Below are positions 57,284-60,510 of a stretch of 64,000 nucleotides of DNA, piece by piece (the first letter of the stretch is position 1; every line of letters starts with the position of its first letter). The DNA comes from Bacteroidaceae bacterium (GTDB lineage Bacteria; Bacteroidota; Bacteroidia; Bacteroidales; Bacteroidaceae), in contig JAKSIO010000008.1 of assembly GCA_024398785.1 (NCBI GenBank), forward strand, positions 1-64,000, read 5' to 3'. The translations under genes were made by a program, and so were the position numbers. The notes beneath the pieces were generated by a model, which worked only from the letters and a program-made list of their open reading frames with translations, did not search any database and was not told where the DNA came from.

Positions 57284-57315
57284 TTTGATTAAATTAGACA
57301 AAAACTATATATTTG
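57284..57315 (+). promoter_or_regulatory. Promoter of the BMP-lipoprotein/C13-peptidase pair
   Basis: TTTG (57284-57287), 20 nt, TATATTTG (57308-57315). It overlaps the 5' part of the longer open frame, so the real start must be further downstream (57342). Confidence 0.65.
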
Positions 57316-57341: not shown

Positions 57342-58286
57342 TTGGACCGACGTATTACACTTGCCATTATCACTATTGTGCTGGTCTTGTCATCGTGCAC
57401 AAAAGTTTATATTGAGGAACCGGTAGACAGGCAGATTATTGTATTTCCTTCCATAGGCGGAGCAGGTGACAACGGATACAATGACCTTATCACCAAAGGA
57501 CTTACAAGAGTCTATATGGATCATAGCGGAGCCAGTATGAACTATCTGACTCCGGAAACAATGGAGCAGGCGGAAAACCAGATATACAAATGGATAAAAG
57601 AAAGCGGGCGTAAAGCTGCACATACTCTGTTGGTACTAGCTGCATCCGACTACCGTGATATCACAGAAAAAATACTTCTGGATTCTGATTTCAAATCGGG
57701 GAACGGAATTGAAATACTGACCTTTGAAATACCGGAATTGCCGCAATCGCAGAACAATGTCAAGGCATATTCTTTTATGATTTCAATGAATGACGCATCA
57801 TATCAGGCTGGAGTATATGCAGCCCGGATGGGATACACCAATCCGCTTATCTGGCTGGCATACAGCAGCGACGCACTACTGATCAAAGCCGCCGACGGTT
57901 TTGAGGCCGGGTATAAATCAGTGACCGGATTGGAGCCTGACAGAAGACACCTTAGCGAAGACTGGCACGGCTATTCAATGGACAGGGAAGCCTATATGCA
58001 GATGGAGGAAATAGACGGGAAATATGACTTCATATACCCGGTAATGGGTGGTTCCAATATGGGAATCTACCGTTATCTGCGCGAGAATCCTGACGGACCC
58101 TGCGTTGCAGGTATGGATGTTGATCAGAGCCCATACTCATCAAAAGTTGTCGGAAATGTAATAAAGCATATAGACAATCTTCTGGAGCAGATAGTCAGAG
58201 ACTGGATAAATGGAGTTCCAATTGAACATTATATAGAATATGATACACAGAGCGGATATATTGAGTGGTGTCCTGTTGTTGATTGA
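57342..58286 (+). CDS. PnrA/BMP-like substrate-binding lipoprotein
   Basis: A ~314-aa lipoprotein of the basic membrane protein (BMP/PnrA) family, whose characterised members bind nucleosides for ABC import. The start is taken as TTG at 57342, giving MDRRITLAIITIVLVLSSC with lipid Cys at 19; an upstream TTG at 57285 overlaps the promoter and is unlikely. Visible fold motifs: VFPSIGGAGDNGYNDLITKG, MNDASYQAGVYAARMGYTNP, IYPVMGGSNMGIYRYL and CVAGMDVDQSPYSSKVVGN. No permease or ATPase is adjacent. Its 3' end overlaps the next gene by 47 nt, so the two are probably translated together. Confidence 0.82.
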   Translation: MDRRITLAIITIVLVLSSCTKVYIEEPVDRQIIVFPSIGGAGDNGYNDLITKGLTRVYMDHSGASMNYLTPETMEQAENQIYKWIKESGRKAAHTLLVLAASDYRDITEKILLDSDFKSGNGIEILTFEIPELPQSQNNVKAYSFMISMNDASYQAGVYAARMGYTNPLIWLAYSSDALLIKAADGFEAGYKSVTGLEPDRRHLSEDWHGYSMDREAYMQMEEIDGKYDFIYPVMGGSNMGIYRYLRENPDGPCVAGMDVDQSPYSSKVVGNVIKHIDNLLEQIVRDWINGVPIEHYIEYDTQSGYIEWCPVVD

Positions 58287-60336
58287 ACTGATTTTTTTTG
58301 CAGGGTGCACTAAAGAAATACCACTCTATTGCAACGAATCGGACCTTAAGGAATGCAGAGTTGCTGTGGTATTGCCTCTCTCAGACGGACTTGGAAACAA
58401 TTGGAAACAATGTCTTGAGATCTGTTCAAACAATCTGGCTGAAGCCTTCTGTCATACTGGACTGGGTGTCAGACTGGTGTACGAATGGTATGAGGAAATG
58501 TCGCCCGATTTGAAACAGACGGCCGCCACACTTGCATCAAGGAGTGACATCAAGGCAGTAATAGGCGGTCTGTATTCCGACAATGCTCTCATACTGGCCG
58601 AAGCCCTCAGTACCAAGGATAAACCACTTTTCACATTGGCTACAACAGACCAGCTTATACGCGGTTATTCCAGTTGGGGCAATCTGTGGGCCATGACAGA
58701 GACCGACATAACCCAATGCGAAGTAATGCTGAGCAAAGTAATGCAATATGGCGCAAAATCGGTCGCACTGCTGGTAAACGGAGAAAGCGCGTACGGCAAC
58801 ACGTATGTTGACTGGTTCCCATTCCAGGCTCAGGAACTGGGAGTCAGAAACGCAGGTGTATTTTCATGCACAGACAATACTGAAGAACAGACTCGCGCAG
58901 CGCTAGCCACCGATGCCGATTATATTCTGTGCGCATTGTCCAACATAGAAACACTGGGAAAAGTGCTCCGCACTTATAACTCAACCCCACATACGGCAAA
59001 ACTGCTTATGAGTGACGTTGCCTACATAAGCGACGCTCTGACAAAGTTGGGCAATCTGGTAGAAGGTGTTGAGGGAATCTGTTATGGTGCAGACCCATCG
59101 ACAGGCTTTGAAGTTATATACGGAACCATTGTCGGACGTTCCCCAATGCTTGACGAATCACAGGTATATGACGCCGCAATGCTGATAGGCTACGCCTCTA
59201 TGTTGCAGATGGTAAACCGCGGAATGAGTTTCAAAAAAGCAATGAGACAACTTGTGAGCGGAAGGGAGGATGTGGACAGTTTCTGGGGAGCTGACGGCAT
59301 GCTGCGCGTAACGCAATCTTTGGCATCGGGAGGTCATCCGGATATTAACGGTGCATCGGGCAGTTTGGAGTTCGACGAAAAAGTCTATACCAATGTTCTT
59401 GGAACATATTATATGAATTATGTTGTTTATGAACAACAATATCTGGCACTGGGCTACTGTTCCACCAAAGGAGACCGCCGTGCCGGACCTACACTTGCAG
59501 AATGGAACTGGAACAAATCAAAGATGCAGGATATAGAAGAGGGAGGAGATGTGAAATACCCGCCTCTTGATGAACGCTGGGCACTACTGATAGCCACATC
59601 TACAGGGTGGGACAATTACCGTCATCAAGTGGATGTACTGAACATCTACCAGCAACTGAAAGCGGCCGGCTATGACGATGACCACATAGTGCTGATAATG
59701 GAAGACGATCTTGCACACAACGCATCCAATCCGGAAAAAGGTGTGCTGTACTCACGCATGGACGGGGTTAACGTATATAAGGATGTCCATGTGGATTACC
59801 ATATCTCAGATATGCAGGCAACCGATTTGAGGGATATACTTACAGGGCACAAGACCCAGCGTCTCCAGCATGTGATAGGATCCGATGCCGATGACAATGT
59901 TTTTGTTTTCTGGTCCGGACACGGAGCACCGGGTATGTTGAATTTCGGGCATTCCGTAATAACAAAGAACAGAATTGAAGACTGCCTGTCGGCTATTGAG
60001 GCCGAGGGCAACTACCGCCAGGGAATATGGTTCGTGGAGTCCTGCTACTCTGGTTCTGTGGCAAAGGCCGCAGACAACCACAAACATCTGATAGTGTTCA
60101 CCGCCGCCGGTGAAGACGAAACCTCAAAGGGTGACGAATACAACCCCAACTGGAAGGTCTGGATGAGCAACCGTTTCTCCGCAACTCTGCAGGACTGCAT
60201 GAAAAACGAACCGGATATGCCGTTGCGCGATCTGTACTACAGGTTATTCCAATCCACCGTTGGCTCACACGTCCACGTTTATGGCATAAACGGCTATGGA
60301 AGCCTGTACACCCACACCCTTAATGAAATTCTGTAG
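58240..60336 (+). CDS. Lipoprotein fusing a LivK-like binding domain to a legumain-type (C13) peptidase
   Basis: The 698 aa begin with a lipoprotein signal (LLLIELIFFAGC, Cys 23). Residues about 35-400 are a type I periplasmic-binding fold (RVAVVLPLSDGLGNNWKQCL, AVIGGLYSDNALILAEALST, YDAAMLIGYASMLQMV). Residues about 445-690 are a caspase-fold peptidase: WALLIATSTGWDNYRHQVDV, H561 in VFWSGHGAPGML and C602 in WFVESCYSGSVAK. The 41-residue His-Cys spacing equals that of human legumain (H148/C189). The ATG lies inside the upstream gene. The fusion is not one I recognise from described systems. Cargo and target are unknown. Confidence 0.88.
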   Translation: MIHRADILSGVLLLIELIFFAGCTKEIPLYCNESDLKECRVAVVLPLSDGLGNNWKQCLEICSNNLAEAFCHTGLGVRLVYEWYEEMSPDLKQTAATLASRSDIKAVIGGLYSDNALILAEALSTKDKPLFTLATTDQLIRGYSSWGNLWAMTETDITQCEVMLSKVMQYGAKSVALLVNGESAYGNTYVDWFPFQAQELGVRNAGVFSCTDNTEEQTRAALATDADYILCALSNIETLGKVLRTYNSTPHTAKLLMSDVAYISDALTKLGNLVEGVEGICYGADPSTGFEVIYGTIVGRSPMLDESQVYDAAMLIGYASMLQMVNRGMSFKKAMRQLVSGREDVDSFWGADGMLRVTQSLASGGHPDINGASGSLEFDEKVYTNVLGTYYMNYVVYEQQYLALGYCSTKGDRRAGPTLAEWNWNKSKMQDIEEGGDVKYPPLDERWALLIATSTGWDNYRHQVDVLNIYQQLKAAGYDDDHIVLIMEDDLAHNASNPEKGVLYSRMDGVNVYKDVHVDYHISDMQATDLRDILTGHKTQRLQHVIGSDADDNVFVFWSGHGAPGMLNFGHSVITKNRIEDCLSAIEAEGNYRQGIWFVESCYSGSVAKAADNHKHLIVFTAAGEDETSKGDEYNPNWKVWMSNRFSATLQDCMKNEPDMPLRDLYYRLFQSTVGSHVHVYGINGYGSLYTHTLNEIL

Positions 60337-60339
60337 AAA

Positions 60340-60476
60340 TGCGCGATAGCGCACCGCGAAGCGCAAAGGGTCCGGGGAAAGTCAGTGCAAACCGAACGCA
60401 GAGTCAAGCATGCGCTTGAACTATGCTGAGGTGCAGCCTGACTTCATGACTGCGCAGCAGGAATAAAGTGTCCCCG
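60340..60476. other. Structured intergenic segment, possible noncoding RNA
   Basis: After the peptidase stop there are nested complementary blocks: CGGGGA (60373-60378) with TCCCCG (60471-60476); AAGTCAG+TGCA (60379-60389) with TGCA+CTGACTT (60432-60444); and TCAAGC (60404-60409) with GCTTGA (60414-60419). A GCGC-GATA-GCGC hairpin precedes them at 60341-60352. Strand and promoter are not evident. It could be a 3' UTR structure or a small RNA. I do not recognise a known family. Confidence 0.45.
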
Positions 60477-60479
60477 TAT

Positions 60480-60510
60480 AAAAGAAAAGGAGAGACCCGA
60501 AAGTCTCCCC
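60480..60510 (-). terminator. Terminator of tRNA-Asn
   Basis: On the minus strand, GGGGAGAC and GTCTCTCC pair around a TTTCGG loop, followed by TTTTCTTTT. Confidence 0.85.

Follow-up and report, generated by a model that had tools for sequence, protein, structure and literature searches.

We analysed a 64,000-nucleotide stretch of DNA from a Bacteroidaceae bacterium (GenBank assembly GCA_024398785.1, contig JAKSIO010000008.1, positions 1 to 64,000), referred to here as the window, which carries a two-gene operon coding for a pair of lipoproteins (Table 1). The second gene is an intact open reading frame for a protein of 698 amino acids that joins a type I periplasmic-binding domain of the LivK type to a peptidase domain of family C13, the family of legumain (hereafter the fusion), and the first gene encodes a Bmp/PnrA-type lipoprotein (hereafter Bmp). 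The signal peptide of the fusion ends in an FFAGC lipobox, the cysteine of which is invariant across an alignment of 66 homologues. Pfam assigns residues 40-277 to Peripla_BP_6 (E-value 6e-13) and residues 446-683 to Peptidase_C13 (E-value 3.3e-52, 178 bits against a cut-off of 22.8). A phmmer search against the PDB retrieved legumains and asparaginyl endopeptidases with E-values down to 3e-32, glycosylphosphatidylinositol (GPI)-anchor transamidase, and LivK (PDB identifier 3td9) with an E-value of 9e-4. An AlphaFold2 model of the fusion based on the 66 homologues (predicted local distance difference test score, pLDDT, 90.8; predicted template modelling score 0.86) was compared with solved structures using VIA-align. 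Residues 443-698 could be superimposed on human legumain (PDB identifier 7fqk_A) with a Z-score of 36.9 and a root-mean-square deviation (RMSD) of 1.5 over 253 residues, and on GPI transamidase with a Z-score of 34.9, and residues 38-418 on LivK TM1135 (3td9) with a Z-score of 34.0 and an RMSD of 2.7 over 332 residues, and on LivJ (PDB identifier 4gnr) with a Z-score of 31.4. Because the two halves match the folds of legumain and of LivK/LivJ, both are complete and the fusion is real. A preliminary description of the window had claimed the lipobox and both domains, and the fold search that it had named as able to overturn the C13 assignment returned legumain.

The catalytic dyad of the C13 domain, His561 and Cys602, aligns with His148 and Cys189 of human legumain with the same spacing of 41 residues, as had been noted from the sequence, and is invariant among the homologues. 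Invariant too is Ser629 (legumain Ser216), and Glu600 (legumain Glu187) is either Glu or Asp. The sole change in the S1 pocket with respect to legumain, which had escaped the preliminary description, is the replacement of Asp231 by Asn644, present in the window protein itself. Profile, fold and dyad thus place the fusion in peptidase family C13, though strictly speaking it is no legumain, and it is likely a working enzyme. It shares with legumain and the plant asparaginyl endopeptidases the fold, the dyad spacing and the equivalents of Arg44, Glu187 and Ser216, but differs in its N-terminal LivK-type domain, its lipoprotein anchor and the Asn at position 231. It also differs at its C-terminus, as the prodomain that keeps legumain inactive is absent and the polypeptide stops where the C13 domain does, at residue 698. 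With this prodomain missing, control of the protease must come from elsewhere, and the N-terminal LivK-type domain is the obvious candidate for its source. Self-cleavage in the interdomain linker was also considered and set aside, as the first alignment had no conserved Asn or Asp site there. The catalytic subunit of the GPI-anchor transamidase (GPI8/PIGK) is a further C13 protein associated with a membrane, but it lacks a binding-protein domain and works in a multi-subunit eukaryotic complex.

In the LivK-type domain, the retained pocket positions are Ser113 (60 of the 66 homologues), Ala134-Thr135-Thr136 (with Thr or Ser at 135), Asp156 (64 of 66) and Asp259, which we take to be the amino-acid contact positions of LivJ/LivK and of class C receptors. 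The pocket thus fits an amino-acid-like ligand, as far as can be read from these residues, and gating of the protease by a ligand is plausible. The type I binding fold and the putative pocket positions are common to LivJ/LivK and to the ligand-binding domains of class C G-protein-coupled receptors, but the fusion is unlike LivJ/LivK in being joined to a protease and in having no transporter genes alongside: neither the window nor the operon layouts listed for relatives show genes for an ATP-binding cassette (ABC) transporter next to the pair. At least two acidic residues follow the lipid-bearing Cys in 81% of the fusion family, against 37% of the other lipoproteins encoded in the same loci, which resembles surface-export signals and suggests that the family resides at the cell surface.

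Table 1. Features of the two-gene operon and its surroundings, in window coordinates.
Feature	Position	Strand	Basis or remark
Bacteroidales-type promoter TTTG ... TATATTTG of the two-gene operon	57284..57315	+	Pattern match just 5' of the Bmp gene
Bmp/PnrA-type lipoprotein, first operon gene	57342..58286	+	Pfam PF02608, E-value 3.6e-11; profile matches
LivK-type/C13 peptidase fusion lipoprotein, second operon gene	58240..60336	+	47-bp overlap with the Bmp gene
Signal peptide and lipobox, lipidated Cys23 (58306-58308)	58240..58308	+	Sequence; conservation of Cys23
Type I periplasmic-binding (LivK-type) domain, residues 37-418	58348..59493	+	VIA-align 3td9, 4gnr
Peptidase C13 (legumain-type) domain, residues 443-698	59566..60333	+	VIA-align 7fqk_A, Z-score 36.9; Pfam PF01650
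Arg461, equivalent to legumain Arg44 (S1 pocket)	59620..59622	+	66/66 homologues
Catalytic His561, equivalent to legumain His148	59920..59922	+	66/66 homologues
Catalytic Cys602, equivalent to legumain Cys189	60043..60045	+	66/66 homologues
Asn644, replacing legumain Asp231 (S1 pocket)	60169..60171	+	Asn in 63 and Asp in 3 of 66 homologues
GC-rich intergenic element after the operon	60337-60480		Stable predicted RNA fold, z -4.0

The Bmp partner, not recognized in the preliminary description, belongs to the family of the nucleoside-binding lipoproteins PnrA, TmpC and BmpD, and its profile matches in the PDB are Lbp (7x0r), TmpC/PnrA (2fqw) and BmpD (6shu); unlike these it is paired with a protease and not with an ABC transporter. 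The start codon of the fusion gene sits 47 bp inside the Bmp gene, and the two genes overlap in 68 of 73 pairs. Immediately upstream of the fusion gene, and in the same orientation, a Bmp gene is present in 81 of the 87 loci with enough flanking sequence (82 if locus L097, where the overlap is deeper, is counted); the 10 complete copies checked from Fibrobacter and Treponema all have one upstream. The distance matrices of Bmp and fusion proteins correlate with r = 0.92, the maximum in 2000 permutations being 0.21, and in the clade of the window the pair stands alone at unrelated genomic sites, for which reason we regard it as a retained unit. The exceptions to the pairing include a separate, divergent clade of fusions in the window's own genus (loci L038, L041, L042, L043 and L045), mostly without Bmp and found beside an alpha/beta-hydrolase-like lipoprotein. 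The promoter pattern TTTG-N18-22-TANNTTTG occurs 14 times in the window, where 2.3 matches would be expected. The mechanically called start of the Bmp open reading frame (57285) falls within the match just upstream of the operon; TTG at 57342 is therefore the likelier start, and it yields a normal signal peptide (MDRRITLAIITIVLVLSSC). The promoter was rejected as a family-wide feature, since the strict motif lies near only 3 of 70 Bmp genes, a count to be expected if most of these genes are transcribed from further upstream.

The operons of relatives, likewise new with respect to the preliminary description, carry varied genes for secreted lipoproteins upstream of the pair. In 22 of 103 loci, spread over three phyla, these include one to three genes for pore-forming lipoproteins with a MACPF domain (21 distinct loci, L124 and L173 being one contig), the domain being confirmed by Pfam in copies of different phyla. 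The linkage is one-sided: of the MACPF genes counted across the 103 loci, 50 are upstream of the pair in the same orientation, one is downstream and none is on the opposite strand. The fullest Bacteroidales operons encode three related MACPF paralogues of about 480, 660 and 780 residues, and several Fibrobacter and Treponema loci have a single MACPF gene. The window's genus, sampled with 20 genomes, gave 11 MACPF matches, of which 10 lie within the fusion operon or on a contig resembling its broken-off end. At least seven changes of the MACPF label are needed to fit it to the fusion tree, so that the cargo comes and goes while the pair persists. The BSAP and CDCL pore-formers of Bacteroidales are also surface lipoproteins, those of the BSAP type sharing the MACPF domain, but in the relatives described here one to three MACPF paralogues stand in one operon with the putative sensor-protease. 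A lipoprotein termed C2, for which no fold match was obtained with a poor model (pLDDT 58), is often encoded between the MACPF and Bmp genes. Lipoproteins of about 750 residues without a Pfam match (family C8; L056:3214-5463 and relatives) occupy the MACPF position; they were considered as a divergent MACPF, but their resemblance to the MACPF family is confined to the N-terminal ~126 residues. Genes for small lipoproteins with a C-terminal zinc-ribbon-like Cys motif and an N-terminus related to C2 (family C3; L066:7152-7709 and relatives) share the region upstream of the pair with LemA-like and DUF4421 genes. In one locus (L032:203-2848) a C10 (streptopain-type) peptidase with leucine-rich repeats is encoded upstream of the pair, bringing a second protease family into the same operon.

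The preliminary description had held bacterial C13 members to be few, a view not borne out by the 416 relatives in the GTDB species-level genome set, nor by the 52 genomes, of 393 sampled from the order, that have a C13-like match of some kind. Of the 416, 80 were kept, nearly all from Bacteroidales of animal guts; cultured hosts include Phocaeicola sartorii and Paraprevotella xylaniphila, the latter with three MACPF genes. Beyond the phylum, strong matches occur in 8 of 41 Fibrobacter genomes and the fusion in 4 of 59 Treponema genomes. Contamination is an unlikely source of these copies, as they occur in several species of both genera and are accompanied by Bmp in every case with a complete flank. 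One contig labelled Oscillospiraceae (L100) has a pair nested among Bacteroidales copies and is probably mis-binned. In an even sample of 395 genomes of the phylum, mostly outside the order, the full-length fusion was found only in the window's own genome, the other 394 giving only partial or one-domain matches. That genome has two complete Bmp-fusion pairs, the copies being 74% identical. The second, which the preliminary description did not include, lies at G000:C41:26773-28866 (loci L017 and L029) and adjoins a gene for a BspA-type leucine-rich-repeat lipoprotein on the other strand. Within the window's genus the pair is patchy, and one congener (G001) has an empty site, where the region upstream of pnp joins directly to the intergenic element found 3' of the window operon, with 99% identity over 101 bp of the element. 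This element matched no Rfam family above threshold, and partial copies of it flank the pair in another locus (L047). The pair as plasmid or phage cargo was rejected, as tblastn returned no match, and so was a part in anti-phage defence, as PADLOC returned none.

Our preferred reading, which we hold tentatively and rate a little short of an even chance, is that the fusion is a membrane-tethered sensor-protease, gated or steered by two receptors of the binding-protein type, that would process co-encoded secreted lipoproteins, above all pore-formers. The C13 cysteine peptidase would be held on the N-terminal LivK-type domain, with the PnrA/Bmp-type lipoprotein from the same overlapping transcript as its partner, in a lipid-anchored module placed probably at the cell surface. 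Binding of a small ligand (amino-acid-like for the LivK-type domain, nucleoside-like for Bmp) or of the substrate itself would control or direct cleavage. The substrates in many relatives would be the lipoproteins encoded just upstream, chiefly those with MACPF domains, and the protease would bring about their maturation or release. The lone pair of the window's lineage would represent the core without its cargo, its substrates being encoded elsewhere or taken from neighbours. There is a precedent in fragipain and DpnB, surface lipoproteins of family C11 that activate the Bacteroidales toxins CDCL, Fab1 and BcpT (PMC11169675, PMC8406203, PMC9308784) and that are, like the fusion, clan CD cysteine proteases on lipid anchors (PMC11169675, PMC8406203). 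They differ from the fusion in belonging to another peptidase family, cutting after Arg or Lys, and not being encoded beside the toxin. To our knowledge, they have no sensor domain. Bacterial gasdermin-protease operons also place a protease beside the pore-former that it may activate, but they form an intracellular anti-phage system, unlike the exported lipoproteins described here.

Several observations weigh against this sensor-protease reading. The genome of the window has no MACPF gene, at this locus or elsewhere, and only roughly one in four of the long-flanked loci has MACPF genes, the rest having unrelated lipoproteins or nothing. The linkage may mark a shared context of secretion or regulation and not a relation of protease to substrate. 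Co-evolution of operon neighbours is to be expected even without physical contact, a legumain-like specificity for Asn/Asp is not assured because Asp231 is Asn, and the surface-export signal of the window protein itself (CTKEIP) is weak. It is also conceivable that the protease is real but that the LivK-type and Bmp domains are scaffolds, substrate recruiters or inhibitory prodomains replacing the C-terminal one of legumain; we consider this rather unlikely. Binding-protein folds are known to be reused in parts that do not serve transport, and both the lack of adjoining ABC transporter genes and the end of the protein directly after the C13 domain would suit such a role, but the pocket positions Ser113, Thr135/Thr136, Asp156 and Asp259 are conserved while other parts vary.

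An orphan-defence role, in which lone pairs recognize and cut the pore-formers or other weapons of neighbours and the copies next to MACPF genes serve self-protection, appears quite unlikely. It would explain why lone pairs persist in genomes without MACPF genes, and the patchy presence and the empty site in the congener are in keeping with it, but the immunity described for one Bacteroidales pore-former locus is a pore-inhibiting lipoprotein and not a protease (PMC11169675), and the anti-phage defence library gave no match. Improbable, in our view, is a nutritional role, in which a surface protease would break down dietary or host protein into peptides or amino acids that the two binding proteins would capture for uptake: both partners do have solute-binding folds and most relatives come from herbivore guts, but the layouts listed show no linked transporter and instead a consistent link to MACPF and other lipoproteins. 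Very improbable is a transpeptidase that joins or anchors surface proteins in the manner of GPI transamidase or the plant asparaginyl ligases. GPI8 and the ligases are nearly as close in fold as legumain, but the proteins encoded upstream already have their own lipobox anchors, and no shared C-terminal sorting motif was noticed, although no systematic search for one was made. We thus favour the sensor-protease over these alternatives because of the conserved pocket, the absent transporters and the one-sided MACPF linkage. A bolder extension, on the unlikely side, is a complement-like system common to gut Bacteroidales, Fibrobacter and Treponema, in which two receptors, one of them fused to a protease, would sense a surface cue and trigger the proteolytic assembly of multi-component MACPF pores, the window carrying the sensor-protease core alone.

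The literature searched, in which subscription journals were largely not covered, yielded no paper on a bacterial C13 peptidase, on this fusion or its Bmp operon, or on C13 beside MACPF. Of the preliminary description, then, the lipoprotein fusion with its conserved dyad and the lack of a published account hold, and the rarity of bacterial C13 does not. The pair may be seen as a variant among the protease-activated secreted systems of gut bacteria, and there is a real chance that it is a new type of system. Legumain-family proteases have been studied almost only in eukaryotes, and here a large bacterial branch of the family is joined to a receptor-type ligand-binding domain; a second receptor-type protein is retained with it, and in three phyla it is linked to genes for pore-formers. 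Should the MACPF link prove functional, the pair would offer a directly testable case, in gut bacteria, in which sensing outside the cell turns on proteolysis and the formation of pores.
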